64,000 nt of DNA from Marinifilum caeruleilacunae (lineage in GTDB: Bacteria; Bacteroidota; Bacteroidia; Bacteroidales; Marinifilaceae): assembly GCF_013141825.1 (NCBI RefSeq), contig NZ_RZNH01000027.1, positions 1-64,000 on the forward strand. The letters run 5' to 3'. The translations under genes were made by a program, and so were the position numbers. The notes under the pieces were generated by a model that did no database searches, had not been told where the DNA came from, and saw only the letters and a list, made by a program, of their open reading frames with translations. Shown piece after piece: positions 1,761-18,434 of this stretch. Each line of letters opens with the position of its first letter. The stretch's first letter is position 1.

Positions 1761-1834
1761 TTTGGGGTTTGCAAAATAATGTGTGATTAGAACTTTAAAT
1801 CTTCATACTATTAGATTTATACTACAAACATACT

Positions 1835-1862
1835 AAAAAGTTCACAAAAATGTGAACTTTTT
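1835..1862 (-). promoter_or_regulatory. 12-bp perfect palindrome: candidate hig operator and/or integrase terminator
   Basis: AAAAAGTTCACA and TGTGAACTTTTT are separated by AAAA. On the minus strand the hairpin lies 22 bp past the integrase stop and ends in a T-run, so it can act as a terminator. It also abuts a minus-strand TATGTTTG box at 1825-1832 that fits the Bacteroidota -7 consensus, 65 bp before higB, so it may be the HigA operator. Both roles are possible at once. Confidence 0.6.
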
Positions 1863-1884
1863 ATAAATAAATCAGCATATCGTA

Positions 1885-4207: not shown

Positions 4208-5120
4208 GCTGTATTCTGTTTTTTGCTTTTTGATAGGTATATATCAAATAGGGAATTGAAATGGGTAAAATCGGGCAAAGGATCATAAATATTGCGGTTG
4301 GAACATGATTTGGAGAATCTTTGTACTGTGACCAGATACTATATTTATACACAATACAGTAGATCTGATAGAGAATGAAATACAAGAAAACTCCTAAAAT
4401 CACATGCCAATAGGAAGGATTGAAGAACAAAAACACTGCAATATGAGGCGTTAGAATTATGGCCAGGAAAGAAGTATTATCCCTTATTTTTGAAAGCAAT
4501 TGTTTTGCATTATTAGGACGTAATTCTTTGCCTTCTGAGGATTTGAATGTTGCTGATAGAATTGTGACAAACAAAAACACAAAAAAGAAATAAGCATACT
4601 CATGTACAGCAGAAAATGCTCCTAATGCCCACAATATAAATAATTTGTAATTGTAAAGCCGTATCGACTTTTTCCATTCAAAAAGGCTGTCGGGTATAAA
4701 GGGAATATGCCAATTTTTAGGTTTGAATGAACTTGTTACACGATACTTTACAAATACAAAGCATAAAAGGACGATCATCATATGTCCCGTTAAAGCAATT
4801 TGCCAGTAGGCATTCAGAAGAAATAAAAGAGATAAAGGAAAAGCCAATAAGCTGTACTCCAATAGGTATACCTTCAAGCTTGATACTTCTAATTTTTGTA
4901 AGAATAGCTTGTCCTTTCTTTGAGCATGACATAGTAGGATCACAAATGCATAAAGCAAAGCAAGGTAAGGACTATGCGCATTTTTGATTTTATCAACTAC
5001 TACAAGAATGAATGCGAATGCCAGCGGGCTTAGAATCAATAGTTTTATCCAGCCTATGGTCTTTAGAATGCGATAGAATTGTTTTATTCTGAATGCAATA
5101 ATTTCCGTTTCTGTATTCAT
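4200..5120 (-). CDS. ABC-2-like integral membrane permease, partner of the adjacent ATPase
   Basis: The 306-residue protein has about eight hydrophobic segments, beginning at residues 25-45 (IKLLILSPLAFAFILVVV) and continuing to the C-terminus, with short basic loops. There is no recognisable catalytic motif. It resembles the poorly conserved permease halves of bacteriocin- or antibiotic-type ABC exporters. It is the promoter-proximal gene of a two-gene operon and its stop overlaps the ATPase start. The nearest LytTR-like repeat ends 78 bp upstream of the ATG, with a TAATTTCC box in between. The substrate cannot be told from sequence. Confidence 0.8.
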   Translation of the reverse strand: MNTETEIIAFRIKQFYRILKTIGWIKLLILSPLAFAFILVVVDKIKNAHSPYLALLYAFVILLCHAQRKDKLFLQKLEVSSLKVYLLEYSLLAFPLSLLFLLNAYWQIALTGHMMIVLLCFVFVKYRVTSSFKPKNWHIPFIPDSLFEWKKSIRLYNYKLFILWALGAFSAVHEYAYFFFVFLFVTILSATFKSSEGKELRPNNAKQLLSKIRDNTSFLAIILTPHIAVFLFFNPSYWHVILGVFLYFILYQIYCIVYKYSIWSQYKDSPNHVPTAIFMILCPILPISIPYLIYTYQKAKNRIQHA

Positions 5121-5154: not shown

Positions 5155-5345
5155 ACTATGAGGAAATTAGGGAATTCAATTGCCTGTTAAAAGCGATATC
5201 GACAAACAATAGCTGAGCATCGACAAACGCATGTGCTCAATCGACTTATCAGTTATTTATCTGCTTAATTTGGTGGGTGTTGTGTACTTTTTACTGCAAA
5301 TGCTAACAAAAAGCCACTTGCAAAATATAGCAGGTGGCTTGGGAT
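5155..5345. repeat. Dispersed ~190-bp repeat, copy A
   Basis: This stretch is nearly identical to 8312-8505, and its first ~95 bp to 18338-18434. It starts ATGAGGAAATTAG, contains the three 21-bp-spaced operator repeats, a TTTGGTGGGTGTTGTG segment, and ends in a hairpin AAGCCACTTGC...GCAGGTGGCTT (5311-5340). Copies A, B and C all lie upstream of minus-strand genes for membrane or lipid-anchored proteins, so the repeat probably is a duplicated promoter region. Confidence 0.8.
5198..5249 (-). promoter_or_regulatory. LytTR-like triple direct-repeat operator, site A (ABC exporter)
   Basis: ATCGACAAAC at 5198-5207 and 5219-5228 and ATCGACTTAT at 5240-5249 recur with an exact 21-bp period (two helical turns). 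In the sense of the downstream permease gene the order reads ATAAGTCGAT, GTTTGTCGAT, GTTTGTCGAT. LytTR response regulators bind pairs of ~9-bp direct repeats with this spacing. A TAATTTCC box lies at 5162-5169, about 28 bp downstream of the proximal repeat, as expected for activation. Assignment to the LytTR class is inference from spacing. Confidence 0.65.
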
Positions 5346-5412
5346 TCGAGTATTTTCGTTGAAAATAGATAGGCGCGGGACACTCGCACCAGCGGAGTGT
5401 ATAAGTTCGCGC
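5311..5412. repeat. Composite two-hairpin repeat, copy 1
   Basis: Hairpin 1 (5311-5340) is followed after about 30 bp by a two-tier hairpin: GCGCG (5373-5377) with CGCGC (5408-5412), and inside it CACTC (5381-5385) with GAGTG (5395-5399). The same arrangement recurs at 8473-8571 with compensatory base changes and in decayed form at 16323-16427. From 5413 to 5686 I see no gene or other structure. Confidence 0.6.
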
Positions 5413-5686
5413 TATCTGGGGAAATTTGTAAACTTCCTGATATAAATTTTTGATTCTAAAAATGAATTTTCTACAGGGGGTATTAAAATTGGGTTTAATG
5501 AGGGAGTAGTTTTAAACCTAGAGAGGCATTCTAGAAATATTTGTTAAGTACCTATGTATTTCCTTAGCAATATGCCCACAGTCTTTATAATCGTTATTTA
5601 AAGAGTATTATGAAGACGATGCAGTTGTTAAAGGTTTGAATTGTTCAATGTATTGAGTAAACACTTAAAAAACGTAAATGATAAAA

Positions 5687-5711
5687 AAAACCTCTCAATA
5701 TGAGAGGTTTT
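5687..5711 (-). terminator. Rho-independent terminator after the first lipoprotein cassette
   Basis: AAAACCTCTCA (5687-5697) pairs perfectly with TGAGAGGTTTT (5701-5711) around ATA. It lies 7 bp beyond the stop of the small membrane protein gene on the minus strand, with T-rich sequence following on that strand. Confidence 0.85.
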
Positions 5712-5718
5712 ATTAGTG

Positions 5719-5943
5719 CTAATCTAAATAAAGATTTTTCAAGTATTTGATTCCGTAAAATGGAATAAAAATTTTAAAATAATCCGCAATACTCATTTTT
5801 AGATGAATCATTCTAATTGTCAAAACAATAAGTAGATAAGGTACGATAAAATATAACATATTTGACACAGGAATAATATCAGCAAATACGTTGATAAAAA
5901 TAAATGGTAAAACGGTTAAAATTATAAAAACTACTTTATTCAT
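5719..5943 (-). CDS. Small two-helix membrane protein, putative partner/immunity protein
   Basis: The 74-residue protein consists of two hydrophobic helices (about 4-22 and 26-44) and a short basic-aromatic tail. No family is recognised. It starts 17 bp after the stop of the lipoprotein gene 5961-6653 and ends in a clear terminator, so the two form a bicistronic unit. The same arrangement, exported protein then tiny two-helix protein, occurs at 7220-8047/7040-7213 and 8804-9379/9406-9570. Small two-helix proteins often act as immunity proteins for membrane-active peptides; that is only an inference here. Confidence 0.7.
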   Translation of the reverse strand: MNKVVFIILTVLPFIFINVFADIIPVSNMLYFIVPYLLIVLTIRMIHLKMSIADYFKIFIPFYGIKYLKNLYLD

Positions 5944-5960
5944 AATGATTTATTTTTTAG

Positions 5961-6653
5961 TTATAAGGAAGCTTTTATGGCGCAGCCAATTGAGGTTCCA
6001 ACAGCACAAGATGGGCCGAATGCAACACACACCATGGCTTCAATACTTCCGTAAACAGTTCCACTAGACATGCGATCCATAGCAACACCAACGCAATCGC
6101 CCCATCCGCTCCAAAATCCTTTAGTTTGGCTTTGATTGCTTAATTCTTCATAAGTTGTAAAAGATATAACATCTTCTCCTTTTACATGCAATTTAAATAA
6201 AAGTTTTGAATTGCTGTAAATTGATGTGATTACTTCTGTATCGGTAATGAAATCTTGAGTAATCAATAAACTTTCTTCAGAAACTTCATCTTCTTTTACA
6301 TAGTGAACTAAAGTGTATTTAAGATCGGAGTTTCCAGATCCCTCAGTTAATAATGCCTTTGCATCGGTATTTGAATATTCGCAAACCAAGGTATTCTCAA
6401 AGTCAAAATATACTATATCTTCAATAGATTTTGTGCTGACTTCATCTTCCAAATATAGAAGTTGTATTTCTGATGCAGCTTTTTGTTTTAAACTTCCTAA
6501 GATGCTCTCATTGCTTAGTTTAAATGTGTTAGTTGGTTGAAATTTAGTTGTTGTGTCAACTTTCTCTTCAATGATATTGTCGTTGCTGTCACAAGACAAT
6601 AAACTACAACCTAAGAATGTTCCACCTAAAAGGAATAGAAAAATTTTCTTCAT
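5961..6653 (-). CDS. Lipoprotein with Cys/Gly-rich hydrophobic C-terminus, bacteriocin-like architecture
   Basis: The 230-residue protein begins with a lipoprotein signal ending LLSC (cysteine about residue 21). Its middle is polar and acidic. From about residue 181 (KGFWSGWGDCVGVAMDRMSS) the C-terminus changes to a Gly/Cys/Ala-rich hydrophobic tail with four cysteines and no charges until the last lysine. That split resembles a precursor carrying a membrane-active C-terminal peptide, but no known bacteriocin family is recognised. It is followed at 17 bp by a two-helix membrane protein gene. The upstream 325 bp (6654-6978) are AT-rich and contain no LytTR-like triplet that I can see. Confidence 0.75.
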   Translation of the reverse strand: MKKIFLFLLGGTFLGCSLLSCDSNDNIIEEKVDTTTKFQPTNTFKLSNESILGSLKQKAASEIQLLYLEDEVSTKSIEDIVYFDFENTLVCEYSNTDAKALLTEGSGNSDLKYTLVHYVKEDEVSEESLLITQDFITDTEVITSIYSNSKLLFKLHVKGEDVISFTTYEELSNQSQTKGFWSGWGDCVGVAMDRMSSGTVYGSIEAMVCVAFGPSCAVGTSIGCAIKASL

Positions 6654-6978
6654 AATAAATTTGTTTAGTTAATTAATATCACCCCTTAATTCTACCTTTA
6701 AGAGAAAGGTAACCCTGCCTTTTAAATATTATTATGTGTTGTAGAATATGGTTTAAATTGCTGTTTTGTCTAAACATATTATAATAATATGCTTATCAAT
6801 AAGTTGACAGTGTGCGTTTTTTTTAATGGAAGTTTCTTTTTGACTGTTTAAATTCGTATTGTTCCGAATAACTTCTATAATTTTGTTGGTACAAATCGAG
6901 CTATTTATGCTAACTCTATTTGTTCCATAACAAGCCAATTTCACACTCCCTACCCAAAAACCACCCCATAACGAACGC

Positions 6979-7003
6979 AAAAATGCCGCCTAAGCAGGCA
7001 GCG
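6979..7003 (-). terminator. Terminator of the second lipoprotein cassette
   Basis: TGCCGCCT pairs with AGGCAGCG around AAGC (6984-7002, one mismatch), and on the minus strand it is followed by five T (rc of 6979-6983). It lies 37 bp past the stop of the 57-residue gene. The 6654-6978 stretch holds no convincing gene. Confidence 0.7.
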
Positions 7004-7039
7004 TTTAAATTATGCTTATCGCAAAAAGTTGGGGATTTG

Positions 7040-7213
7040 TTATTTCTTGTTGTTGATAAAGGGAATTTTTGGTAAAAAAAACATTATAGCTGTGATTATT
7101 ACAGAAATGATAATTGATTTGTATAATTCTTCTGAACTGGCCCACTGAAATAAGCTTGTTAATAAAACAATCGATATTAGTGGAAGAATATAATAAAATA
7201 CAATTTTTCTCAT
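7040..7213 (-). CDS. 57-residue two-helix membrane protein, putative partner/immunity protein
   Basis: Reading the minus strand from the ATG at 7213 gives MRKIVFYYILPLISIVLLTS, a short loop containing SSEEL, a second hydrophobic helix (IIISVIITAIMFFLP) and a basic end FINNKK. The start lies 6 bp after the stop of the 275-residue lipoprotein gene, so the genes are probably co-translated. It is too short for most gene callers. It matches the size, topology and position of the proteins at 5719-5943 and 9406-9570 but shares no obvious sequence with them, a pattern typical of immunity proteins. Function is inference. Confidence 0.75.
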   Translation of the reverse strand: MRKIVFYYILPLISIVLLTSLFQWASSEELYKSIIISVIITAIMFFLPKIPFINNKK

Positions 7214-7219
7214 AACTAT

Positions 7220-8047
7220 CTACCACAAACCCAATATCATACGTGCTGCAGAGGCCTGTAAACCTCTCCCAACTACAACCAAACCTATACCAGCCCAACC
7301 TGCAGGACCTGCAGCAGCCATAGCAGCTCCTGTTCCTGATACAGCTAATCCTAAACCTGCTAAAGCAGCACCACCAACATCAGCTTGACCAGCAGCTTTC
7401 CAGTCTAAGCTTTTAAGGCTTTGATCATTTAATTTTAACCATTCCTTATAGTTAGCACTCCAATAATCTAAAGTGCTTTTTGCTACAGATGAAGTTGATA
7501 ATATCAAGAACTGCTCCTCAGTATTTAATGTTTGAATAGCTTTCTCCTCAATGGCTGAAATCCTTGACTTTAATGAGGATAGGTTCATATCCGAATCATT
7601 CATAATATCGAAGAGATTATGAAGTTGATTTTTAGCATCAACTGATATTTTTGACAACAAACTATCTGGTATAAAGTTATTTTGGGTAGATTTTAATTTG
7701 AGATCAAAAGAATTATAATCATTTATTCCATCTTGAATTTGCGAAATTGCAATAGCTTTGAGTTCGTCAGAACCAATTTGTTCATTAACAAATTTGATTG
7801 AAATATTTTTTTGTAATTCAATAAGACTTTCCTTTTTAGATAATTTTGAACCTTTTAGATTAAAGTCCATACTTTTTAACTCTTCTAAAGACAATTCCAA
7901 GCCTTGATTGTGCAATTTTCCAATATATTCAAAATCTGAAACTTTTAATTTTTCATTCTTAAACTCAAGTTCATCTGACTTATTACAAGAAATAATTGTG
8001 ATGCCAATGATTGCTATACTTATTAAACTATAAATAAATTTTTTCAT
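7220..8047 (-). CDS. Lipoprotein with Gly/Ala-rich glycine-zipper C-terminus
   Basis: The 275-residue protein starts with a lipoprotein signal ending IISC (about residues 18-21). Residues about 25-220 are polar, Lys/Glu/Ser-rich and helical. The last ~55 residues switch to an uncharged, Gly/Ala-rich region (ADVGGAALAGLGLAVSGTG, then AGPAGWAGIGLVVVG) ending in RMILGLW. Such glycine-zipper tails are seen in pore-forming peptides and in some secreted bacteriocins. No known family is recognised. A 57-residue two-helix protein follows 6 bp downstream. Site B of the LytTR-like operator lies about 310 bp upstream, so a long 5' leader or a second promoter is implied. Confidence 0.8.
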   Translation of the reverse strand: MKKFIYSLISIAIIGITIISCNKSDELEFKNEKLKVSDFEYIGKLHNQGLELSLEELKSMDFNLKGSKLSKKESLIELQKNISIKFVNEQIGSDELKAIAISQIQDGINDYNSFDLKLKSTQNNFIPDSLLSKISVDAKNQLHNLFDIMNDSDMNLSSLKSRISAIEEKAIQTLNTEEQFLILSTSSVAKSTLDYWSANYKEWLKLNDQSLKSLDWKAAGQADVGGAALAGLGLAVSGTGAAMAAAGPAGWAGIGLVVVGRGLQASAARMILGLW

Positions 8048-8311
8048 AATTTTGAAATTTTAGTAAAGCATATAGAAGTTATGCTTTTGTTGGTTAAGTA
8101 AAATTTGTTTACTCTCTCGATTTTCAACACATTATTTCGGCTATTCTCTTATTTAATGTCGCTTTTCACTTTCACAAACTCGACGTTGGATGGTTAGTCC
8201 AATAATAACCCATATGTATAGTTTTCAAAGAAATGCAGAGATGTCGCAGCTCACCCTTTTCGTTCAACATAGTTCGAAGTCTCAAGCACAGGTAGGTAGT
8301 TGAAAATGCTT

Positions 8312-8505
8312 AGATTATGAGGAAATTAGGAAAATGAAATGCTTGTTAAAAGCGATATCGACAAACAATAGCTGAGCATCGACAAACGCATACGCTCAAT
8401 CGACTTATCAGTTATTTATCTGCTTAATTTGGTGGGTGTTGTGTGTGCTTTTTACTGCAAATGCTAACAAAAAGCCACATAAATCTTACTGCATGTGGCT
8501 GGGAT
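8312..8505. repeat. Dispersed ~190-bp repeat, copy B
   Basis: It matches 5155-5345 across its length: ATGAGGAAATTAGG, TTAAAAGCGATATCG, the operator repeats, TTGGTGGGTGTTGTG and a hairpin AGCCACAT...ATGTGGCT (8473-8500). The hairpin loop differs between copies while the stem is retained. Confidence 0.8.
8357..8408 (-). promoter_or_regulatory. LytTR-like triple direct-repeat operator, site B (lipoprotein cassette 2)
   Basis: ATCGACAAAC at 8357-8366 and 8378-8387 and ATCGACTTAT at 8399-8408 recur with exact 21-bp period. The TAATTTCC box of copy A is kept downstream. The orientation towards the minus-strand lipoprotein gene is the same as in site A, although 310 bp separate it from the start codon. 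Confidence 0.65.
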
Positions 8506-8571
8506 AACATTGTTTTCTATAAAAATTATTACGTGCGGGAAGCTCCCACTATCTGGGGGAGTACTCGCACG
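8473..8571. repeat. Composite two-hairpin repeat, copy 2
   Basis: Hairpin 1 is AGCCACAT/ATGTGGCT. Hairpin 2 is two-tiered: CGTGCG (8532-8537) with CGCACG (8566-8571), and CTCCC (8543-8547) with GGGAG (8557-8561). Compared with 5373-5412 both stems have changed sequence but kept pairing, which argues that the folded form matters, as RNA or as a REP-like palindrome. Confidence 0.6.
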
Positions 8572-8654
8572 GATGCACCGACATACGAAAGAACCCCTTT
8601 TCTAACAGACTGAAATACTCCCACTTATTCCTATATCTCTCCATACTATTTTTC

Positions 8655-8706
8655 ATAAATCGATTTCCAGTACACGTTTGTCGATGCTCAATACCTGTTT
8701 GTCGAT
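8655..8706 (+). promoter_or_regulatory. LytTR-like triple direct-repeat operator, site D (outer-membrane protein cassette)
   Basis: This copy is inverted relative to A-C: ATAAATCGAT (8655-8664), GTTTGTCGAT (8676-8685) and GTTTGTCGAT (8697-8706), again 21 bp apart, followed by ATCGCTT. It faces the plus-strand gene at 8804, 98 bp from its ATG, so its orientation to the target matches the other copies. Only the operator core is shared; flanks differ from the ~190-bp repeat, which supports selection on the core. Confidence 0.68.
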
Positions 8707-8803
8707 ATCGCTTGGTCAAGGGGAATGGTTGATTTATTATTAGTTAATAGAATGATGCTCAGGTAAATCAATTCACTTTAATAACTTCATAAAATCCATT
8801 TGT

Positions 8804-9379
8804 ATGAAAAATAAAATTAAGAACAGAACTACGCTGATACTTCTTCTGCTTTGCCTTAGCAGTTGGGTTTATTCACAAAGCGAAGAATATGACTTTCATA
8901 AAATCATTATTGAACCCGATTTTACATTTAAATTGCATCAATATGCCTTGGACAATTCTGGTAAAGAGTTTAAGGTAATTAATAAGGCCGATCATTTTTT
9001 TGCTATGCGCATTACCAATGCATTTTTTATTAATGAAAATTTTTCTGTCGGGTTTGGAATCGGACTGGAAATGGCTCCAGTTACTGAATTTCCAGTTGTT
9101 ATCGATCTAAGAAACTACTTTGGGAAAGGAGAAAACCGAAACTATCTCTCTTTAAATTTTGGAAAAGCCTTTCATGGCTATTCCAATTTTAAAACCTGGC
9201 TGGGCGAAATAGGAGGTGGACGAAGTTTTACATTGAGCAAAAAATCTTCACTCAATATAAGTGTTAATTATCAGTTCACTTACCTCAACAGTGATTTTAT
9301 CAGACATGATGGTCGTAAGAAATGGGTGAAAGAACTTTATACCGGCTCTCTTGCTTTGAAAGTTGGAATTATGTTCTAA
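8804..9379 (+). CDS. Small outer-membrane beta-barrel-like protein
   Basis: The 191-residue protein has an N-terminal signal peptide (hydrophobic core about 11-21, likely cleavage after VYSQ). The mature part is rich in alternating aromatic strands (FAMRITNAFFI, FSVGFGIGLEM, LNFGKAF, LNISVNYQFTYL) and ends LALKVGIMF, consistent with an eight-stranded outer-membrane barrel with a terminal aromatic residue. No specific family is recognised. It follows LytTR-like site D by 98 bp and is followed by a 54-residue membrane protein gene, repeating the cassette pattern of the two lipoproteins. Confidence 0.75.
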   Translation: MKNKIKNRTTLILLLLCLSSWVYSQSEEYDFHKIIIEPDFTFKLHQYALDNSGKEFKVINKADHFFAMRITNAFFINENFSVGFGIGLEMAPVTEFPVVIDLRNYFGKGENRNYLSLNFGKAFHGYSNFKTWLGEIGGGRSFTLSKKSSLNISVNYQFTYLNSDFIRHDGRKKWVKELYTGSLALKVGIMF

Positions 9380-9405
9380 AAAATAGGCTTACTTTAATTA
9401 TAAAA

Positions 9406-9570
9406 ATGAAAAAATATCTACCACATATACTTTTTATAGCTTCTTTAATATTTCTATTTTTTTCAAAATATATTTCAGATCAAGTTTTTACAATTAATAA
9501 AGTATTTACAATTGTTTTGTTGTTTTGGGTAATTATGAAAGTATTCAAATTAAGGAGATTAGATCAGTAA
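9406..9570 (+). CDS. 54-residue two-helix membrane protein
   Basis: From the ATG at 9406 the frame gives MKKYLPHILFIASLIFLFFS, a short loop, a second helix (VFTIVLLFWVIMKVF) and a basic tail KLRRLDQ. An upstream in-frame start within the barrel gene is possible but would add a tail of a different nature, so the ATG is preferred. It begins 26 bp after the barrel protein stop and ends before a strong terminator. Size and topology match the proteins at 5719-5943 and 7040-7213. Function is unknown. Confidence 0.65.
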   Translation: MKKYLPHILFIASLIFLFFSKYISDQVFTINKVFTIVLLFWVIMKVFKLRRLDQ

Positions 9571-9624
9571 TGAAATTTCCTAATAGCCAAAGTAACTCCA
9601 CAGGATACGAATACAAATGAGTTA

Positions 9625-9654
9625 AAAGCAGCCACAATTTGGAGTGGCTGCTTT
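9625..9654 (+). terminator. Strong rho-independent terminator
   Basis: AAAGCAGCCAC (9625-9635) pairs perfectly with GTGGCTGCTTT (9644-9654) around an 8-base loop, followed by GTTTGT. It ends the barrel/two-helix operon. The next ~220 bp to 9873 are AT-rich leader of the following defence operon with no other gene. Confidence 0.85.
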
Positions 9655-9873
9655 GTTTGTGCTTGGTTTTTTGAGTGCTTAAAAGACCTGGTTAAACTAC
9701 TACACGTATGGTTAAACGTTGATTGCTACTAAGCTGCAAATCATGTTATTTGGAATTAATCTATATTTCAGTAATTATATTATGATCCTATTATAATTAA
9801 TAATCAATATTTTAATTTTAGTAAAACATTAGTGTTTAATGAAAATATTACTACTTAAATAAGTTTAAAATTT

Positions 9874-10158
9874 ATGGCTTTAATAAAAATAAAAGAATCA
9901 AGAAGCGCAGCCGACTTCAAGGTGTGTGAGGTAACTTCAAGGTCGATCGCAGATTTATTAGTATGTAAAGTTGACTCTAGAAGTCCTGCACGTGGAAATG
10001 ATCACCTTTGGTGTTTTATTGATTCATCATCAATTGCAGATTCAAAAGTTTGCTTTGTGGATTCTCGTTCAGTTGCAGATTTATTGATTTGCTTTGTAAC
10101 ATCAAGAAGTGTAGCTGGGTGGAAAAAAGATCATCCTTTAAAAGGGAGGATTGGATAA
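9874..10158 (+). CDS. Short internal-repeat protein (DUF6150-like)
   Basis: The 94-residue protein is made of about five copies of a ~16-residue unit of the form S-R-S-x-A-D-(L/F/S)-(L/K)-(V/I)-C-x-V-(D/T), for example SRSIADLLVCKVDSRS. Such repeats of alternating hydrophobic residues are typical of small beta-strand repeat proteins known from Bacteroidota as DUF6150; the family assignment is from memory. Each unit carries a cysteine (C18, C31, C47, C60 and C73 by count), unusual for a cytosolic protein this small. The next gene starts 1 bp after its stop, so the two are translationally coupled. Role unknown; position suggests a defence-linked partner. Confidence 0.65.
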   Translation: MALIKIKESRSAADFKVCEVTSRSIADLLVCKVDSRSPARGNDHLWCFIDSSSIADSKVCFVDSRSVADLLICFVTSRSVAGWKKDHPLKGRIG

Positions 10159-10159
10159 A

Positions 10160-10651
10160 ATGACACTACCAATAAGACCACGTGCTCATGTTTTAGAAAG
10201 AGAATCAATAAACAATCTGCATGAAAATATTCCTAATGAATGGGTTATACAGCAAATTCCAAATGATTATGGTGTTGACAATTTCGTGGAAATTGTACAA
10301 AATCAAGAAGTAAATGGTAATGTTTTCTCAATACAGCTAAAAGCTACTGATAATGTGTTTGAGAACCAAGATTATGTTTCAGTTAGAATGAGAACGCCAA
10401 CAATAAGGTATCTAATGAATCGTGTTGAATTGGTGATGATTATTTTATTTGTTTCTAATGAGAATCAATCCTACTGGATTTGGTTAAGAGATATTGCAGA
10501 ACATGTAAATTATGACAACGCAACATTAACTGTAAGAATCCCTAAACAAAACAGGTTGAACACAATAAATTGGAACAGAATTATGGAATTTACTGAACTT
10601 ATTAGGAATGCAAAGGTTGAGGCGGCTAGAGATATGAACTTTAATTATTAA
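10160..10651 (+). CDS. DUF4365-domain protein (nuclease-like)
   Basis: The 163-residue protein contains the DUF4365 signature: a conserved D in YGVDNFVEIV and the strand motif FSIQLKATD, which correspond to the acidic and QxK residues of PD-(D/E)XK-type nucleases. The C-terminal part includes the conserved YWIWLRDI strand. An unusually good GGGAGGA (10144-10150) fixes the start at the ATG at 10160 rather than at a TTG nine bases upstream. DUF4365 proteins are recurrent in anti-phage islands. Here it is coupled to the repeat protein and precedes the NDT-like and Hachiman genes. Cleavage activity is inferred from family. Confidence 0.8.
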   Translation: MTLPIRPRAHVLERESINNLHENIPNEWVIQQIPNDYGVDNFVEIVQNQEVNGNVFSIQLKATDNVFENQDYVSVRMRTPTIRYLMNRVELVMIILFVSNENQSYWIWLRDIAEHVNYDNATLTVRIPKQNRLNTINWNRIMEFTELIRNAKVEAARDMNFNY

Positions 10652-10748
10652 TAATGGCCAGCGTATACTTCATTTTGACCTGACAATAATAAGTTTGTGT
10701 ATTTAGATAATATCCTTGCTAAGGTAATCAAAATAATATCCTGTAAGT

Positions 10749-11936
10749 ATGAGAGATAAAGGAATTGCATTTGTTATAATGCAAATTGGGAATCCAGAAC
10801 TGGACAAATTATACGATGAAATTTATGTTCCTGCTATTGAAAAAGCTAATTTGATACCAAAACGAATAGATCAAGACAACTCTGGTTATCTTTTAAAAAA
10901 GGAGATTATTTCATTTATAGAAGATGCGGAAATCATAATAGCTGATTTGACTAATGAAAGACCAAATTGTTATCTAGAAATTGGATATGCAATGGGGTTG
11001 GATAAGTTTCAGAATTTAATTTTCACGGTTAGAGAAGATCATTTTCCAGAGAGTAAAAACTTTCAGAAAGGAGGGCCTAAAATACATTTTGATGTGAGTG
11101 GTTATGAAATTTTATCTTGGGATAAAAATGAACTCAATAAATTTAAAAATTCATTAACCAATAAAATTAGTAGAAGATTAACTACGGTGAAACCTCAGCA
11201 AAAGGGTGTTGTCAAAAAAAAATGGGATCAGAATTGGTTAAAAGATAAGAGGGAGTATGCTCAAAAAAAAATGGATGCATTAGAAATAGGAAGGCAAATG
11301 GAAGTTCTTGTTTCAACTGAAGATCATATTTCGCTTTCTCAAACTCAACTATTAGAAATTGCAAATGAGTGTCAAATGGATATTTTAGGTTGGCCAATTG
11401 CTCCTGTAATCCCTCATTTACCGATTTATAGTCCAAAGCCTAAGGTAGATGGTCTCTACTCAGAAATAATTAGAAATGAAGGAGTGTTAAGTTTTGACTA
11501 TACTTATTATCTAAAAAGTGGAAAAATTTTTATTGCGAAAAGTATTTTTGAAGAACATCATTTTAAAAATTGCATTATTGTACCTATTCGAATAAAACGG
11601 TCAACAGAATTGTTGATGTACATATTAAAGTACTATTATAAATGTGGTTTATCCCCATCTAATAAAATAGAGATTGAAGTCAGATTTTGTGGAATTAAGG
11701 ACAATGAAATAAGTTATGGATCAGAGGGATTCGTTATGAGAAGTTACAAATCAAAAGAGAATGAAAGTTATTGTAAATTAACGACAACTCTTGGGGATAT
11801 TGAAAATAATTTAACAGACTTAGTATATCAGCTTTCTAATGAATTATTCGTTTTGTTTGACTTTTTTAGCATAAATGAAGAGCAAGTTGAATCAATAGTA
11901 AATTCATTTGTTAATGAAAAGCGAAATGCTTTCTGA
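10749..11936 (+). CDS. NDT/TIR-like nucleotide-processing domain protein with unknown C-terminal domain
   Basis: Residues 1-130 form a Rossmann-like domain of the nucleoside 2-deoxyribosyltransferase/TIR-like superfamily. AFVIMQIG comes at the start, then IIIADLTNERPNCYLEIG, where the E of NxYxExG is the usual catalytic glutamate. Such domains bind or hydrolyse nucleotides, and several act as abortive-infection effectors. Residues about 150-395 form a second domain with no recognisable family, beginning with a Lys-rich helix around 160-180. The gene stands alone 98 bp after the DUF4365 gene and 128 bp before hamA. It could be an independent single-gene defence system or an accessory to Hachiman; sequence alone does not decide. 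Confidence 0.78.
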   Translation: MRDKGIAFVIMQIGNPELDKLYDEIYVPAIEKANLIPKRIDQDNSGYLLKKEIISFIEDAEIIIADLTNERPNCYLEIGYAMGLDKFQNLIFTVREDHFPESKNFQKGGPKIHFDVSGYEILSWDKNELNKFKNSLTNKISRRLTTVKPQQKGVVKKKWDQNWLKDKREYAQKKMDALEIGRQMEVLVSTEDHISLSQTQLLEIANECQMDILGWPIAPVIPHLPIYSPKPKVDGLYSEIIRNEGVLSFDYTYYLKSGKIFIAKSIFEEHHFKNCIIVPIRIKRSTELLMYILKYYYKCGLSPSNKIEIEVRFCGIKDNEISYGSEGFVMRSYKSKENESYCKLTTTLGDIENNLTDLVYQLSNELFVLFDFFSINEEQVESIVNSFVNEKRNAF

Positions 11937-12039
11937 TATTAAGATTGAACAAATAGGAATGATAATTTGGTTATAGAATTCAAGACTATTCTATAAGTAT
12001 ACGTCGGATGAAAAATGGATAAGAAGTATTTATTTTAGT

Positions 12040-12047
12040 TACCTTTG
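12040..12047 (+). promoter_or_regulatory. Putative -7 promoter box of hamAB
   Basis: TACCTTTG fits the Bacteroidota -7 consensus TAnnTTTG and lies 16 bp upstream of the hamA ATG, implying a very short leader. No clear -33 TTG was found at the right distance, so confidence is limited. Confidence 0.4.
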
Positions 12048-12063
12048 TTGAAGATCTAAACCT

Positions 12064-12894
12064 ATGCATAAATTTAAGAAAATTGATATACCAGTTAAAG
12101 CTTCTTTTATTGATAAGTTTGCACAAAAGTATTTAGAGCAACGTTCTCAATGTCAAGATGACTTATCTGCCATTGGGGAGCAAACATTGTTTAATAATCT
12201 AGGGTTTAGTACGGATACATTAAAGAAAATCATTGAGAAAAGTGCTGTTGCCATTGATAAAAAAAGAGAAGATGGATTGGAGCCCAAGATTCTAAATGAT
12301 ATATATCGTAGCGATTTAGGTGAGTTGTTAATGACTTATTATTTTGAGGAAAAGTTACCGGAAGGTGAACGATTTATAATTCCACTCAAAAATATTACAT
12401 TTAGAGAAAGAGAAGATTTACCTGGAAGAGGATTGGATGCAATTGGCTACAAGCAAAACTCTATAGAGAGGGTAGAAATACTTTTAGGAGAGGCAAAAGT
12501 GTCAGAAGATAAAAAATCTCCTCCTCCGGTAGTAGATTCAAATAAAGATTCCATTTTTAATACTCAATTGAAACATAAAAATGATACTCCGATTGTTATT
12601 CGAAGGTTGTCTGATTATGCGCGGAGGTTAAATGTGAAAGATGCAGCGATTTTAGGATTTGCGATAGTTTGTTTGGATCAAGGATTATCTGATAAGATTG
12701 AAATTACATATGGATGTACATTAATTAGAGATTACACATGTGTAAATGAGAGTTTGGATTATGGCAAAATGAAAACCAATGAAGAGAAATTTGATCCAGA
12801 TAAAATAAATTTCTCCATATTATCTTTTAGTGATAAAAGTATAAAAGAAACTGTTGAATTATTTTATAAGAAAGTACAAGAGTTGATTTCCTAA
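12064..12894 (+). CDS. hamA: Hachiman anti-phage system nuclease HamA (DUF1837)
   Basis: The 276-residue protein carries the DUF1837 signatures: RSDLGELLMTYYFEEKL near 83-99, PGRGLDAIGY at 120-129 and EILLGEAKVS at 138-147. D125, E143 and K145 form a PD-(D/E)XK-like nuclease site. In Hachiman, HamA is the effector nuclease held inactive by HamB and released to degrade DNA when the helicase senses aberrant DNA. It is the first gene of a two-gene operon, 4 bp ahead of hamB. The length is typical and no key residue is missing. Confidence 0.92.
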   Translation: MHKFKKIDIPVKASFIDKFAQKYLEQRSQCQDDLSAIGEQTLFNNLGFSTDTLKKIIEKSAVAIDKKREDGLEPKILNDIYRSDLGELLMTYYFEEKLPEGERFIIPLKNITFREREDLPGRGLDAIGYKQNSIERVEILLGEAKVSEDKKSPPPVVDSNKDSIFNTQLKHKNDTPIVIRRLSDYARRLNVKDAAILGFAIVCLDQGLSDKIEITYGCTLIRDYTCVNESLDYGKMKTNEEKFDPDKINFSILSFSDKSIKETVELFYKKVQELIS

Positions 12895-12898
12895 TAGC

Positions 12899-15800
12899 AT
12901 GAGCAACTTTATCAATTCCATATTAGAAAAGGATGCAATTATTTCACTTCTCAATGAAAGTGAAAGAGGGTATGTTTTTAATCAGTTAAAACTACCTTAT
13001 AGTGCTGATGTTGACAATGGTGAATTATTAAGATTTACTTTTTTTCTAATTAACTCTATTTACAATGAAGAGAGTGAATCTAATAAGAATACAAGCAAAA
13101 TTGTATATAAGCTATTAAAATTAATTGATATAGATACTAAGGAAGAGTTGTATCAGTTTGGGGAGGTATTCGGAATACAAGGAATTGATTCAAAAACTCT
13201 ATACTATCTTTATTTAGCAAATCTTGCATTAAAAGCGGAAAAACAAATAAGTATCCGAATAGATCTAAAAGAATTTAGAATTTCGGTTGAAGAAATTTCA
13301 AATTGGAAGTATCGATTATTGAACAAAGCGATAGAAGCATATATTCTTTTAGTTCGTAAACAAAACGGTTATAAAGATATTGAAGATGCATTATCGATTA
13401 TTGAAGGTTTAAAAAAGGATCAAAAGGATTTTGAAGAGAAGTATCTTAAAAAATTCAATATAGCTAATGAAGTAAATGAGGCATATGATTTACTATCATT
13501 ATATCACTTATCTAAAGCGGTAATTGAAACAGCTAGTTACTTAATAAAAGGCTACGATTATAAAGGTCGATTAGATGCAGTCATTAGACAACATATCGAT
13601 ATTGCAAAGAAGTTAGTTAAAACTGAACCTAGGTTAACTAGTGTCTTTAATCTAATTGAGTTTGGATTAAACGAGATGTATAAAAATGCAATATGGACAA
13701 ATACTAGATTTAATGACAAAATTAAACAGCTCTGTAGGAAAAAAGCTAATCTTGGTATGATTGAGCTATTACCTTCTCAGAGAGAGGCATTGTCTGAAAA
13801 ACTACTAGATGTAGCTGCCAATGTTACTGTTTTACAAATGCCTACAAGTGCAGGAAAAACTCTTCTTGCTGAATTCAATATTATTGTAACCAAGGCATTA
13901 ATGTCCGAGGCAAAAATAGTGTATATTGTTCCTTCTAGAGCTTTAGTAAATCAGGTTTATTATGATTTAAAATCAGATTTATCAGAATTAGATTTTTCCA
14001 TTGAGAAAACATCTTCAGCGATAGAAATTGATCCTACAGAAGATACTTTTTTAAGTAGTGATGAAAAAATTGACATTCTCATTTCAACACCTGAAAAACT
14101 AGATTTATTGATAAGAAGGAGACATCCATCCGTTGAAGATGTTTCAATGTTTATTTTGGATGAAGCTCATACAATTCAGAATGGAGAGAGAGGGGCTAAG
14201 TTGGAGTTATTAATGGCAATTTTGCGAAGAGAAAGACCCAATGCTAAATATATGTTATTATCTCCTTTCATTAAAAATGCTAATGAAAAAATAACTGATT
14301 GGCTTGGTGGGGGTAATTCGATTTCTGTAGATTGGAAACCTTCGGAAAAATTGATATTAGGCGTTAATACAAAGAAAACAAAACGAAAGGATGAAATTCA
14401 TATTGAGGTTCTTCCTTCCCCTTATGATTCAATAAAACCTATTGAGAAGACGGTAATTGAAAACCCTCATTCATTAGTTAGTACAGGGATCAAAAATAGG
14501 ATACTAGAATTTTCAATTAAACAATTTGCTGAGCCTGAAAAAACAATGTTAGTATTATGCTACGGTAAAGGTACAGCTAATAGTAGAGCGAATTTTATAT
14601 ATGACAAAGTTGAAAATTATACTCCTAATGATGATGTAAGACTTGTCAAAAAATTTATAGAAGATGAAGTTGGAAGACAAACTACTCTTTCTAAGGTAAT
14701 AGAGAAAGGAATAGTCACTCATCATTCAGGAATGTCTGATGAGACAAAATTACTAGTTGAACATTTGGTAAGACAAAAGCAAATACAATTTGTATGTGCT
14801 ACAACTACAATTGCCGAGGGTGTAAATTTTCCAGTATCTACTGTTTTTTTTGATGATTATAGGAGAGGAAGGTATAATAAGCTTGATTCTAATGATTTCT
14901 GGAACATAGCGGGGAGGGCTGGTCGTACACTTGTAGATAATTATGGTAAAATTATTCTTCCATTTAATAGCGATACAAATATTGATAGTGGAAGAGGATT
15001 GATCAAGGATAGTGCAAATGTTTTATCAAGTGTGCTCGCTGACCTTTTTGAAAATGCAGACTATATTGAGCAGAAATTAGAAGAATCAAATGGGTTATCA
15101 GAATTATTTCGTAATTATTCAGATTCGTTATCACCTCTTATTCAATATTTTGTTCATTTACTGACTGTTGGAGAAAAAGAGTATTATGTATCTGAAATTG
15201 AAGATCTTTTTAAAGATTCTTTGGAGTATTACCTTTTGGACACTGCTGTTAAAAAAGAGCGATTCATTTCAATATGCAAATCAATATATTTAAATCTTCA
15301 ATCTAGATTTCAAGATAAAGGAGTGTTAACTTTTGCTGATAAAACAGGTTTTTCGGTTCCATCTGTTTTAACTGTTATGAATGAAGCATCTAAAAATTGG
15401 GAAATTAGAAATATAGATGGTTGGTCAAAAGAGCAAATGTTTAATAGTCATAATCTGGACAATTTGACAGAAAAGATTAGAGTTATTGCGGCTCTAAGAG
15501 AAACTCAGTTAGGAATTGATTCAAGTAGTACTCCTTTTAACCCAGAACTTTATGCAAAGATTATAATTGGTTGGGTACAAGGTAAGAAATTGTCTAACAT
15601 TGCAGATCAACACCCTAGTTTCAATACCCAAGATGTTGATGAAGTTTTGAAAGAAAAACGAATTACGGATTTTGTCAAGAAAATGAATGATATAAGGTTC
15701 AAGGCATCTTGGGGATTAAGTGCTCTTGAAGGAATAGTAAGAGGAAATGAAGAGATAAAAGATTCACATATTCCATCTTTGGTATACTTTGGTGTAGATA

Positions 15801-16018
15801 ATGAAAAATCTTTAGCTTTTAGAATGATCGGAGTTCCTAGGACACTATCTTTTACATTGCAGAATATAATTGAGGGAAATTTAAATCAGTATTCATATCG
15901 TTCATTAAGAAAAAGAATTAATAATTTATCAAATTCTGATTGGGATGGTTTAAAACCAGTAAACTCATCTTTAAGTGGGATGGAATGGAAAAGAATTTCT
16001 GAAATACTCATTAAATAG
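12899..16018 (+). CDS. hamB: Hachiman anti-phage system helicase HamB (SF2, Ski2-like)
   Basis: The 1039-residue protein has an N-terminal extension of about 290 residues, then a complete SF2 helicase core: Q-motif PSQREAL, motif I MPTSAGKT (about 313-320), motif II DEAH (about 420), motif III-like LLSPF, and motif VI region WNIAGRAGR (about 666-674). The C-terminal ~350 residues are family-specific. HamB uses ATP to survey DNA ends and controls HamA. Direct adjacency to hamA in the same orientation confirms the system. The coding sequence is uninterrupted. Confidence 0.92.
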   Translation: MSNFINSILEKDAIISLLNESERGYVFNQLKLPYSADVDNGELLRFTFFLINSIYNEESESNKNTSKIVYKLLKLIDIDTKEELYQFGEVFGIQGIDSKTLYYLYLANLALKAEKQISIRIDLKEFRISVEEISNWKYRLLNKAIEAYILLVRKQNGYKDIEDALSIIEGLKKDQKDFEEKYLKKFNIANEVNEAYDLLSLYHLSKAVIETASYLIKGYDYKGRLDAVIRQHIDIAKKLVKTEPRLTSVFNLIEFGLNEMYKNAIWTNTRFNDKIKQLCRKKANLGMIELLPSQREALSEKLLDVAANVTVLQMPTSAGKTLLAEFNIIVTKALMSEAKIVYIVPSRALVNQVYYDLKSDLSELDFSIEKTSSAIEIDPTEDTFLSSDEKIDILISTPEKLDLLIRRRHPSVEDVSMFILDEAHTIQNGERGAKLELLMAILRRERPNAKYMLLSPFIKNANEKITDWLGGGNSISVDWKPSEKLILGVNTKKTKRKDEIHIEVLPSPYDSIKPIEKTVIENPHSLVSTGIKNRILEFSIKQFAEPEKTMLVLCYGKGTANSRANFIYDKVENYTPNDDVRLVKKFIEDEVGRQTTLSKVIEKGIVTHHSGMSDETKLLVEHLVRQKQIQFVCATTTIAEGVNFPVSTVFFDDYRRGRYNKLDSNDFWNIAGRAGRTLVDNYGKIILPFNSDTNIDSGRGLIKDSANVLSSVLADLFENADYIEQKLEESNGLSELFRNYSDSLSPLIQYFVHLLTVGEKEYYVSEIEDLFKDSLEYYLLDTAVKKERFISICKSIYLNLQSRFQDKGVLTFADKTGFSVPSVLTVMNEASKNWEIRNIDGWSKEQMFNSHNLDNLTEKIRVIAALRETQLGIDSSSTPFNPELYAKIIIGWVQGKKLSNIADQHPSFNTQDVDEVLKEKRITDFVKKMNDIRFKASWGLSALEGIVRGNEEIKDSHIPSLVYFGVDNEKSLAFRMIGVPRTLSFTLQNIIEGNLNQYSYRSLRKRINNLSNSDWDGLKPVNSSLSGMEWKRISEILIK

Positions 16019-16246
16019 CAGCACATGCAAAACTTTTTGATGGTACAGAAAATAAATATGAGGTAGTTCACTTTCTAGAAATGTTACTCACTATTTAATT
16101 CAAATACAGTAAGAATCCAATTGAACAATCAGAAGGGTAAACTAGCATTAGCTAATTTTTAAACTTTCAAGCACAGCCTCTAAGTAACTTTTATATATAA
16201 GAAAGATTGATACGTCATAGTTATTCTTATTGATACACCCACGATG

Positions 16247-16280
16247 GCGCGAGCTTTCAGCTCGTGCCCTGTGCATACAG
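16247..16280. repeat. GC-rich hairpin repeat ending CCCTGTGCATACAG
   Basis: GCGCGAGCT (16247-16255) pairs with AGCTCGTGC (16259-16267) in an otherwise AT-rich gap, followed by CCTGTGCATACAG. A decayed relative lies at 3431-3463 and a fragment (TGTCCTGTGCAAACAG) near 17755. It looks like a dispersed REP-like palindrome. The gap 16019-16582 shows no gene. Confidence 0.55.
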
Positions 16281-16322
16281 AAAAACTTAATTACAAACAG
16301 CACTTCTATTGCCCCAAAATAA

Positions 16323-16427
16323 AAAGCCACTCACATCTTAGAGCAAGTGGCTTGGGATTCTTAATTTTTTAAAATAGAAAGGAAGGAGATGCTCGCACCA
16401 GCAGTTTATATAAACTCGCGCCAACCA
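16323..16427. repeat. Composite two-hairpin repeat, copy 3 (decayed)
   Basis: AAGCCACT (16323-16330) pairs with AGTGGCTT (16345-16352), followed by GGGATTCT as in copy 1. About 30 bp on, GCTCGCACCAGC and AACTCGCGCC recall the second hairpin of copy 1, but the outer stem is partly lost. No LytTR-like repeats accompany this copy. Confidence 0.5.
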
Positions 16428-16582
16428 GGCTTTTGGGTTTTATGCCTGACGGATTTTCAATGTGTTTATTCTAAAATAAAAACTCCTCTTATTTTAATTT
16501 ATTTCATTTTTTTAAAATTACTGACCTTTTTAGTTTAAATTTATACTAAAATCTAAAATTAAAACTTTTCAATTTTAATATC

Positions 16583-17704
16583 ATGAAAGATTTTAAAGCA
16601 GGACATATCATCAATCAAGGAACTTATAAAAGTTTTGAGCCCGAACTAATCAATAGAGAATGGCATGTGGATGATATGGAGATTGTAAGCTTGCTTGACA
16701 AGGCTAATAGGCATCTAGGTAGGTTGGATATGTTTTCTGAATACATTCCAAATATAGATTTGTTTATTAGTATGCACGTCTTAAAAGAAGCTACTCAATC
16801 AAGTAAAATTGAAGGAACACAGACCAATATTGAGGAAGCTTTATTAGACAAAGAAGATGTTAATATTGAGAAACGAGATGATTGGGAAGAAGTTCAAAAC
16901 TATATTTCAGCTTTAAATGAAGCGGTTAGTTCACTTCATACATTGCCATTTTCATCAAGATTGATCAAGGAAACTCACAAAACACTATTAAAAGGTGTTA
17001 GAGGCAAACACAAACTTCCCGGATCTTTTAGAACCAGCCAAAACTGGATTGGAGGAGCTTCTATAAATGATGCAATATTTGTTCCTCCGGTTCATACATC
17101 TATCAATGATTTAATGGGAGATCTGGAAAATTTTGCACACAATACTGATTTCTATTTTCCGGATTTGCTTAAAATTGCATTAATACATTACCAATTTGAA
17201 ACAATCCATCCATTTCTTGATGGCAATGGAAGAGTTGGACGCTTGTTAATAACACTATATCTTGTTGAAAAAGGCATTCTTAAAAGACCAATTTTATATT
17301 TGTCTGATTTCTTTGAAAGAAATAGAACCTTATACTACGACAACCTTTCAAGAGTAAGAGAAAAAGATGATATCACTCAATGGTTTAAATTCTTCCTGGT
17401 GGGGATGATTGAAACAACACAGAATGGGATTGAAACTTTTGATAGGATTCTGAAATTGAAAAATGAAGTAGATAGTAAAATACAATCGTTAGGAAATCGC
17501 TCAAAAAATGCATTTAAATTAATGGATACATTATATAGAAAGCCATTGGTTGCAGCTTCTAAGGTAGCTGAAATTACAGAGACATCGGATGCTACAGGAT
17601 ACAGTTTGGTAAAATCTATGGTTCAGCTTGGGATCCTAAAAGAAATAACCGGAGGCAAAAGAAAAAAGATCTATGCATTCAGTGAATATTTAGATTTATT
17701 CTGA
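16583..17704 (+). CDS. Fic-family protein (class II), AMPylase/cell-signalling type
   Basis: The 373-residue protein has a complete Fic core motif, IHPFLDGNGRVGRLL, with catalytic H209. In the N-terminal part the inhibitory helix motif (S/T)xxxE(G/N) is seen in SSKIEGTQ (about residues 73-80), which marks class II Fic enzymes whose helix blocks the ATP site. The C-terminal ~90 residues contain a winged-helix-like region (ASKVAEITETSDATGYSLVK). Fic enzymes transfer AMP or other phosphate groups to proteins. The gene stands alone, next to the defence island. It is a distant paralogue of 49162-50304, which lacks the His. Confidence 0.9.
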   Translation: MKDFKAGHIINQGTYKSFEPELINREWHVDDMEIVSLLDKANRHLGRLDMFSEYIPNIDLFISMHVLKEATQSSKIEGTQTNIEEALLDKEDVNIEKRDDWEEVQNYISALNEAVSSLHTLPFSSRLIKETHKTLLKGVRGKHKLPGSFRTSQNWIGGASINDAIFVPPVHTSINDLMGDLENFAHNTDFYFPDLLKIALIHYQFETIHPFLDGNGRVGRLLITLYLVEKGILKRPILYLSDFFERNRTLYYDNLSRVREKDDITQWFKFFLVGMIETTQNGIETFDRILKLKNEVDSKIQSLGNRSKNAFKLMDTLYRKPLVAASKVAEITETSDATGYSLVKSMVQLGILKEITGGKRKKIYAFSEYLDLF

Positions 17705-17800
17705 TATAGCAATACTACAAAAAATCCCCGCTGAGGGAAGTTTGTTTCTTTTGTCCTGTGCAAACAGCTTCAACTTTCGTCATATGGGAGATGAGCTTTT

Positions 17801-18256
17801 TTACTGTTCAAAATAACTCAGCACCACCTCAATTTCTTTCTGTTTCCTGGGTCTTTCAATAATCGCATGGTACTGCACACTTGTGGCCACTGTGGTAAAG
17901 GATCGCAAAACAATTACGGTATAAACAATGCTGTTATTGTTTTCTTCAACTTTCTGGGAGTATAGTGTATTGCCATAGCTATAACTTTTTTCTCCTATTA
18001 TGAGCATATACTTCGAATAATCAATTTGGGGAATGCAATTTATTGTGATGTATTCATCTAGTTCTTCATTTGAGTTCACTACGCGATAAGTATCCGATAA
18101 TTCAGATTTGGCATCCCATATTGGGTCTTCACATTCAAAATCGGTGAATTTCAGGAAATTGATTTCTTCCAGTTCTTCATCACTACTGCTACTGCAAGCA
18201 GAAAGAAATAGAGCAAGGCAGCTAAAGCACAGAAAATATTGAAATGCTGTTTTCAT
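17801..18256 (-). CDS. Lipoprotein, paralogue of the 18467 gene
   Basis: The protein starts MKTAFQYFLCFSCLALFLSA followed by the lipobox cysteine (LSAC). The ATG at 18256 is preferred over one five codons upstream because the paralogue begins with the same MKTA(F/I)QYFLC. The mature part shares with 18467-18952 the order E-I-(N/D)-F-L-K-F, C-E-(D/N), LSDT(Y/F)R(V/I)VNS, EELD, I-N-C-I-P-Q-I-D-Y-S and a final beta-rich segment, with two conserved cysteines. No known family is recognised. It lies behind LytTR-like site C, whose proximal repeat ends about 127 bp from this ATG. It converges with the Fic gene. Confidence 0.8.
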   Translation of the reverse strand: MKTAFQYFLCFSCLALFLSACSSSSDEELEEINFLKFTDFECEDPIWDAKSELSDTYRVVNSNEELDEYITINCIPQIDYSKYMLIIGEKSYSYGNTLYSQKVEENNNSIVYTVIVLRSFTTVATSVQYHAIIERPRKQKEIEVVLSYFEQ

Positions 18257-18337
18257 GATTCTTGTTCTCATTGGGATTTATCCGTTTTTTTATACAAAAC
18301 TAGTAGTCTTAAACACTGGTGAGTAAGTGAAATGAAT

Positions 18338-18434
18338 AGATTATGAGGAAATTAGAAAAATGAAATGTTTGTTAAAAGCGATATCGACAAACAATAGCTG
18401 AGCATCGACAAACGCATGTGCTCAATCGACTTAG
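18338..18434. repeat. Dispersed repeat, copy C (truncated)
   Basis: The sequence is nearly identical to the first ~95 bp of copies A and B, from AGATTATGAGGAAATTAG through the third operator repeat. Similarity stops there, without the downstream hairpins. Confidence 0.78.
18383..18434 (-). promoter_or_regulatory. LytTR-like triple direct-repeat operator, site C (lipoprotein)
   Basis: ATCGACAAAC at 18383-18392 and 18404-18413 and ATCGACTTAG at 18425-18434 recur with 21-bp period. In the sense of the minus-strand lipoprotein gene the arrangement, and the TAATTTCT-type box about 28 bp downstream, are the same as at site A. It separates the two paralogous lipoprotein genes, so only the downstream one has it. 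Confidence 0.65.

Follow-up and report, generated by a model that had tools for sequence, protein, structure and literature searches.

Promoters regulated by LytTR proteins carry direct repeats of about 9 bp that lie 10-13 bp apart (PMC11347149). RcoM1 has an operator of three direct repeats upstream of -35, each 8 bp long and set apart by spacers of 12-13 bp (period 20-21), and CoxC is a membrane-anchored LytTR protein without receiver, which also has three repeats and represses (PMC11347149). AgrA uses direct repeats upstream of the promoter, with the promoter-proximal repeats centred near -60 (PMC4227749), and AlgR of Pseudomonas aeruginosa has the core CCGTTCGTC / CCGTTTGTC (PMC4064291). 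The HdrRM and BrsRM systems of Streptococcus mutans are autoregulated and control bacteriocin genes, with repeats 4-11 bp upstream of -35; LRS-like operons in Bacteroides comprise a transmembrane (TM)-LytTR regulator and 11-bp repeats 11 bp apart, followed by TGTA-19-TATCTTTG (PMC6193735). Here, a set of sites with a comparable build is described in Marinifilum caeruleilacunae, of which four lie in the window, a stretch of 64,000 nucleotides (contig NZ_RZNH01000027.1, positions 1 to 64,000; C81:1-64000 of a 5.27 Mb draft genome of 202 contigs, C numbers denoting contigs). The set as a whole is probably best explained as LytTR activator operators of one regulon, with the membrane protein P0001 as its most likely regulator.

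A triplet of half-sites with a period of 21 bp, first noticed in a sequence-only reading of the window, occurs there four times against a mean of 0.00 in 100 shuffles, and nowhere else in the window. The matches at 5198-5245, 8357-8404 and 18383-18430 (plus strand) are without mismatch, that at 8659-8706 (minus strand) has one (ATCGAT for ATCGAC), and the period is exactly 21 at all four. The reading was also right that every site has the same orientation relative to its downstream gene, and that three lie close to the start codon (77, 97 and 111 bp from the last half-site); the fourth lies 309 bp away. Operators, core promoters predicted by alignment, and target genes are the following.

5198..5249, minus strand: operator; distal 5240-5249, middle 5219-5228 and proximal 5198-5207 half-sites
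5164..5193, minus strand: predicted core promoter; -33 box 5190-5193 (CTTT), -7 TAnnTT 5164-5169
3503..5120, minus strand: target operon; membrane protein without Pfam hit (4200-5120) and ABC ATPase (3503-4207)
8357..8408, minus strand: operator; distal 8399-8408, middle 8378-8387, proximal 8357-8366
8323..8352, minus strand: predicted core promoter; -33 box 8349-8352 (CTTT), -7 8323-8328
7220..8047, minus strand: lipoprotein of 275 amino acids (aa) with a Gly/Ala-rich hydrophobic C-terminus, putatively bacteriocin-like; no Pfam or NCBIfam hit
7040..7213, minus strand: small membrane protein of 57 aa, 44% identical to a protein of a second regulon operon (L053); candidate immunity protein
5961..6653, minus strand: lipoprotein of 230 aa that shares 48% identity with the first C129 target (L059)
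8655..8706, plus strand: operator; distal 8655-8664, middle 8676-8685, proximal 8697-8706
8711..8740, plus strand: predicted core promoter; -33 CTTG 8711-8714, -7 8735-8740 (TATTAT, 3/4 bases)
8804..9379, plus strand: protein of 191 aa with a signal-like N-terminus; no Pfam hit
18383..18434, minus strand: operator; distal 18425-18434, middle 18404-18413, proximal 18383-18392
18349..18378, minus strand: predicted core promoter; -33 box 18375-18378 (CTTT), -7 18349-18354
17801..18271, minus strand: lipoprotein of 156 aa; a paralogue (53%) at 18467-18952 lies directly upstream of the operator

The two lipoproteins that the sequence-only reading named as targets are those of 275 and 156 aa. Its ABC exporter is borne out for the ATPase, the partner being a membrane protein without Pfam hit, and its outer-membrane protein is unproven, since the protein at 8804-9379 has no Pfam hit. 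The 230-aa lipoprotein is possibly the end of the operon of the 275-aa one, though 387 bp away. Three of the window copies share 102-246 bp (84-91%) and the fourth shares about 60 bp (80%), so that the four sites are not fully independent. A second intergenic repeat adjoins two of the operators (5305-5412 and 8466-8505) and recurs without operator at 16318-16421 (74% and 80% identity).

Over the whole genome, the two-half-site pattern with one mismatch allowed has 39 matches, against 3 in a reversed control. These were reduced to 27 sites by merging overlapping matches and contig-end duplicates (C3:131406 with C173:73, and the end of C175 with the start of C174) and by dropping one match inside an open reading frame (ORF; C2:132955, within a 275-codon ORF of the opposite strand). 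A sequence profile built on these sites, R1, returns the same 27 by construction when rerun on the genome, 26 of them scored whole at 49.6-72.4 bits and the C185 site split by a fourth unit. Moreover, it adds two weaker sites on C11 (33.7 and 30.3 bits), ahead of two TonB-dependent receptor genes, for a total of 29; C35:4169, C129:29511 and five model matches of E 0.1 to 0.5 are excluded from this number.

A same-strand ORF lies downstream of 27/27 sites and likewise of both C11 sites. Opposite-strand ORFs of at least 80 codons start within 500 bp at two sites only, and both of these, each 87 codons long, fall within the target gene. Two sites are overlapped by an ORF, namely an upstream extension of the target ORF on C129 and an unsupported ORF of 123 codons on C177. 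The first in-frame ATG is found 52-442 bp past the last half-site at all 29 sites, under a rule that took ORF starts from 10 bp before the last half-site in one run and from 25 bp after it in the other; no chosen start therefore precedes the predicted transcription start. At C49:155346 there are two candidate targets, an ORF of 90 aa at 240 bp and a lipoprotein at 460 bp. The site-bearing contigs also hold genes with close orthologues in congeners, among them LytTR genes on C2 (87%), C3 (86%, one congener) and C102 (76%), which makes contamination improbable as the source. Together, these about 29 promoters are one regulon-like set. The regulon postulated by the sequence-only reading is thus real in this sense and larger than first reported, and the checks suggested there (genome-wide copies, fixed orientation, and enrichment ahead of exported-protein genes) came out in its favour.

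A gapless stack of the 27 sites, read in gene direction, gives a distal half-site TNAAGTCGAT, N11, a middle half-site (C)GTTYGTCGAT, N11, and a proximal half-site GTTTGTCGAT, followed by ATCGCTTG. The 10-mer that had been proposed is a real repeat, better read on the other strand as GTTYGTCGAT and degenerate in the gene-distal half-site. Half-sites of 10 bp, spacers of 11 bp and a period of 21 are within the LytTR direct-repeat format, and the spacing is strict: pairs of [GA]TCGAT in the fetched loci number 55 at 21 bp and 27 at 42 bp, and no other spacing up to 60 bp is represented more than 4 times. The middle-proximal spacer holds a conserved CTCA, and the C185 site has four half-sites through an exact 21-bp duplication.

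The array stops 4 bp short of a -33-like CTTG, present in 15/27 sites, and 28 bp short of a -7 element TAnnTT. This element, at +59 to +64, has at least three of its four bases in 26/27 sites, as compared with 7/27 at the best other offset, with T at +64 in every site and A at +60 in 23/27. The two C11 sites, unused in building the profile, align gaplessly through the same -7 element. Against the Bacteroidota sigma-ABfr consensus, with -7 TAnnTTTG and -33 TTTG (PMC7366714), the TAnnTT register is clear but the final TG is not conserved. Judged by this alignment, the sites look like complete, activator-type promoters.

The operators of the LytTR one-component regulators RcoM1 and CoxC resemble the host sites in having three direct repeats, and the earlier view that three half-sites are foreign to LytTR operators does not hold (PMC11347149). 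They differ in their half-sites (TTCNNGCA or TTNNNGCN), in sensing carbon monoxide and in controlling one target cluster (PMC11347149), whereas the host set comprises about 29 promoters, a GTTYGTCGAT half-site and a putative 7TMR-DISM sensor. The supposed novelty of the half-site sequence likewise falls away: in gene sense, GTTYGTCGAT contains the AlgR core, and AlgR and host half-sites share CGTTYGTC (PMC4064291), which is present in the middle or proximal half-site of 19/27 sites. In contrast, AlgR sites lie at widely varying distances and in either orientation, and AlgR is a response regulator (PMC4064291). The two proximal host half-sites are estimated to centre near -56, similar to AgrA, which differs in its two half-sites, other sequence and response regulator (PMC4227749). 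HdrRM and BrsRM share with the host set the repeats close to -35, autoregulation (presumed in the host) and bacteriocin or bacteriocin-like genes, whereas they and the Bacteroides LRS-like operons differ in two repeats, a separate membrane protein gene and another sequence (PMC6193735). The TAACTGA repeats near start codons described in PMC4679880 are a different thing from the host motif. The host case thus differs from these systems in regulon size, sequence, putative 7TMR-DISM receptor and restriction to one searched genome; by analogy, it appears to work like a LytTR activator system.

The genome encodes 17 LytTR proteins, and only the gene of P0001 (C174, 531 aa) has a listed site upstream (C174:76-127, 214 bp ahead). 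P0001 has a LytTR domain (56.3 bits), a 7TMR-DISMED2 sensor (24.0 bits, cut-off 22) and a putative seven-transmembrane (7TM) region (21.6 bits, under the cut-off of 29), and no receiver. At E 0.01, a PDB sequence search with it returned 0 matches. The locus also encodes P0002, a TPR-LytTR protein, and the genes that come next after P0001 specify a protein of 473 aa, which has no Pfam hit, and an OmpA_like protein. Directly upstream of the P0001 operator lies a repetitive protein of 3282 aa (L063:3547-13395, plus strand), with 8 stretches of its first 1484 aa matching Shr-like_HID. If P0001 is the regulator, the C174 site provides the repeats that LRS operons have ahead of their regulator's promoter; LRS membership fails because no separate membrane inhibitor gene is seen beside P0001, which is a membrane protein itself.

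The proposed mechanism is that each site would serve as the activator operator of one promoter, built of three LytTR half-sites whose spacing of exactly two DNA turns would line up LytTR domains on one face. The array would end before the -33 box and -7 element of the housekeeping Bacteroidota sigma type. P0001 would most likely control the about 29 promoters, the site before its own gene would give feedback on itself, probably positive, and P0002 may be its partner. The 21-bp direct repeats, the AlgR-type core, the place just upstream of -33 and the LytTR gene behind one site support the LytTR class well, so that a regulator of this class, as the sequence-only reading had proposed, is very probable. 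LytTR binding, activation and the identity of the regulator are what we infer from these features, and the choice of P0001 in particular is tentative.

Several points weigh against this explanation. The general LytTR half-site pattern GTTN[AG][TG] fits 17/27 middle and 23/27 proximal half-sites, but only 3/27 distal ones. The full TAnnTT is present in just 10/27 sites and TTG at +36 in 16/27. Two weak profile matches do not behave like promoters: the nearest sizeable ORF downstream of C35:4169 (25.8 bits), of 379 codons, belongs to the opposite strand, and a 142-codon ORF encloses C129:29511 (19.1 bits). As to the regulator, P0001 is located at the start of a contig and its site in the part shared with C175, so that its upstream neighbour is deduced from that overlap. 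Moreover, privacy alone does not single out P0001, as 7/17 LytTR proteins have no clear orthologue in congeners.

This last point comes from a comparison with five congeners (59/62 matches used, three of G005 left out), in which 10/17 LytTR proteins have a relative of at least 75% identity over the whole length and the remaining 7/17 reach no more than 45%. Among these seven, P0001 and P0002 alone lack a receiver domain; the other five (L032, L035, L038, L046 and L047) are receiver-LytTR response regulators. One of these five is the likeliest agent if another LytTR protein acts in trans and P0001 is merely a target, a reading also favoured by the fact that AlgR, with its similar core, is a response regulator (PMC4064291). 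No other LytTR gene adjoins a listed site, however, and autoregulation, typical of LytTR systems, favours P0001, which leaves an unlikely though serious competitor.

A regulator of another class reading the 21-bp direct repeats, with the AlgR-like core coincidental, is a still more doubtful alternative. Direct-repeat operators are not exclusive to LytTR proteins, BldC being an example (PMC5859096); the resemblance to LytTR sites is confined to part of the unit, and the spacer has conserved bases too (CTCA). On the other hand, spacing, sense, -33 distance and core sequence all match LytTR operators, and a LytTR gene carries a site. About equally improbable is that the array is a repressor site, where a LytTR protein bound beside -33 would obstruct RNA polymerase. 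Only a very short distance separates the array from -33, and CoxC, membrane-bound and with three repeats, represses; its repeats overlap -35 (PMC11347149), whereas the last half-site here stops 4 bp ahead of CTTG, and the -33 and -7 elements are imperfect, like those of activated promoters.

It is highly improbable that the sites derive from the copying of a mobile or repetitive element, akin to miniature inverted-repeat transposable elements or repetitive extragenic palindromes, and have no regulatory role. The window copies do share flanks, five further site pairs share 53-90% of 60 bp upstream, and one imperfect 16-nt inverted pair (5030-5045/5444-5459) surrounds the 5198 site. However, the median upstream identity over 325 pairs (26/27 sites) is 0.32, most flanks being unrelated, and inverted repeats common to operator copies were absent from the three window stretches examined, a search for element ends that was not systematic. 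This reading was rejected on the single sense relative to genes at 29/29 sites, the fixed -7 register and the mostly unrelated flanks. An iteron or attachment site was rejected because the sites precede 29 scattered genes.

The target genes lean towards exported proteins. By a crude rule, with four target starts trimmed and operon partners included in the background, a lipobox is found in 10/29 first genes against 38/273 other ORFs of the same loci (P 0.008), and a lipobox or hydrophobic N-terminus in 24/29 against 142/273 (Fisher P 0.001). Named families among first or second genes are ABC ATPase, MFS transporter, DUF302, TonB receptors, thioredoxin-like, SnoaL-like, peptidase C10 with I69, DsrE, DUF1573, DUF4221 and Sigma-70 ECF, and many target proteins have no Pfam hit. 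The C177 target is a grasp-with-spasm operon for a ribosomally synthesized and post-translationally modified peptide (RiPP), with an ATP-grasp protein (TIGR04192, 234.5 bits, cut-off 230), a SPASM protein (TIGR04193, 271.5 bits, cut-off 175) and a weakly matched precursor (17.4 bits against a cut-off of 33).

Several operons combine a lipoprotein with a Gly-rich hydrophobic end and a hydrophobic protein of 57-74 aa. Such pairs are found in the window (7220-8047/7040-7213) and at L060, L059 and L056, the last with its lipoprotein split between overlapping ORFs. From their sequences, they look like a toxin with its immunity protein, which stays a tentative reading since no family model matches the scanned pairs. 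Antibacterial proteins of Bacteroides have a downstream immunity gene, and the lipoprotein operons of the regulon parallel this arrangement (PMC9308784, PMC8406203).

Site pairs were found in 0/5 congener genomes, and in 1/51 other family genomes was there even one; a comparable site set was seen in none of the 56. A family profile search with stricter filters gave matches at E 0.1 or better in 33/57 genomes, the host included, those outside the host being all weak (at most 21.8 bits) and mostly partial. The isolated pair in genome G006, at 18.1 bits, is not distinguished from chance; it lies between divergent genes, on one side a histidine kinase and then a response regulator, the DNA-binding domain of which falls beyond the analysed stretch. 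In a class sample, 7/394 other genomes had 1-2 matches (9 in total, against 3 in a reversed control), and none had the site set.

Full-length relatives of P0001 are likewise absent from the 56 other family genomes, where only C-terminal matches were seen. P0001 and the motif are therefore parallel in their restriction, barring the one isolated motif pair. Searches of the class and of genome contigs also gave C-terminal matches only, with at most three candidates scored per genome in the class search, so that weak relatives may be missed. Two LytTR ORFs, of 583 and 593 codons, lie side by side in genome G403, and the 21-bp repeat pair behind them is estimated to be no more than chance would give. 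Turning to one target gene, the C2 transporter, the G005 orthologue (75%) has a single GTCGAT in its locus and no repeated one, and four other congeners have homologues of 33%. A description of the motif or regulon was not found among the literature matches listed, in a search whose coverage excluded subscription papers and preprints.

The window holds further features. At 12064-16018 (plus strand), a HamA-like protein (PF08878, 21.5 bits, under the 25-bit cut-off) lies beside a HamB-like helicase (PADLOC PDC-M23B, E 2.5e-191), and the two form a Hachiman-like defence pair by sequence, adjoined by a Fic protein (16583-17704, plus strand) that matches PADLOC SoFic (E 6.8e-121). A 1581-aa ORF at 22074-26819 (minus strand) has the unusual combination of an RND efflux permease (ACR_tran, 544 bits) fused to an ABC ATPase domain (101 bits). 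Two direct repeats of 193 bp at 21605-22004 are 98% identical with 207 bp spacing, mostly in the intergenic gap. Downstream of the first target operon, the genes at 236-3165 (minus strand) encode an HTH-M78 protein, a protein weakly matching a HigB-like toxin (25.0 bits against a cut-off of 27) and a tyrosine recombinase, a possible integrated element.

Few targets of Bacteroidota LytTR proteins are named among the literature matches listed, and the sampled congeners encode 8 to 15 such proteins each, compared to 17 in the host. With an operator, a core promoter and a candidate regulator, the set is a regulon that can be tested, and it would link a 7TM receptor-LytTR fusion with genes of bacteriocin-like and RiPP type. 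Being absent from the searched congeners, it also lends itself to the study of fast regulatory rewiring. One rather speculative reading, unlikely as it stands, is a genome-private global regulon, in which the lineage put some 29 competition and envelope promoters under an orphan, autoregulated 7TM LytTR receptor after the split from its congeners. A ready-made cassette of operator plus core promoter would then have spread by duplication and by expansion of the 21-bp unit, as in the fourth unit on C185; the pattern may instead be due to the congeners having lost the set, or to its acquisition from an unsampled relative. If the genome-private origin is true, the set would be a natural record of a whole regulon built in a short time.

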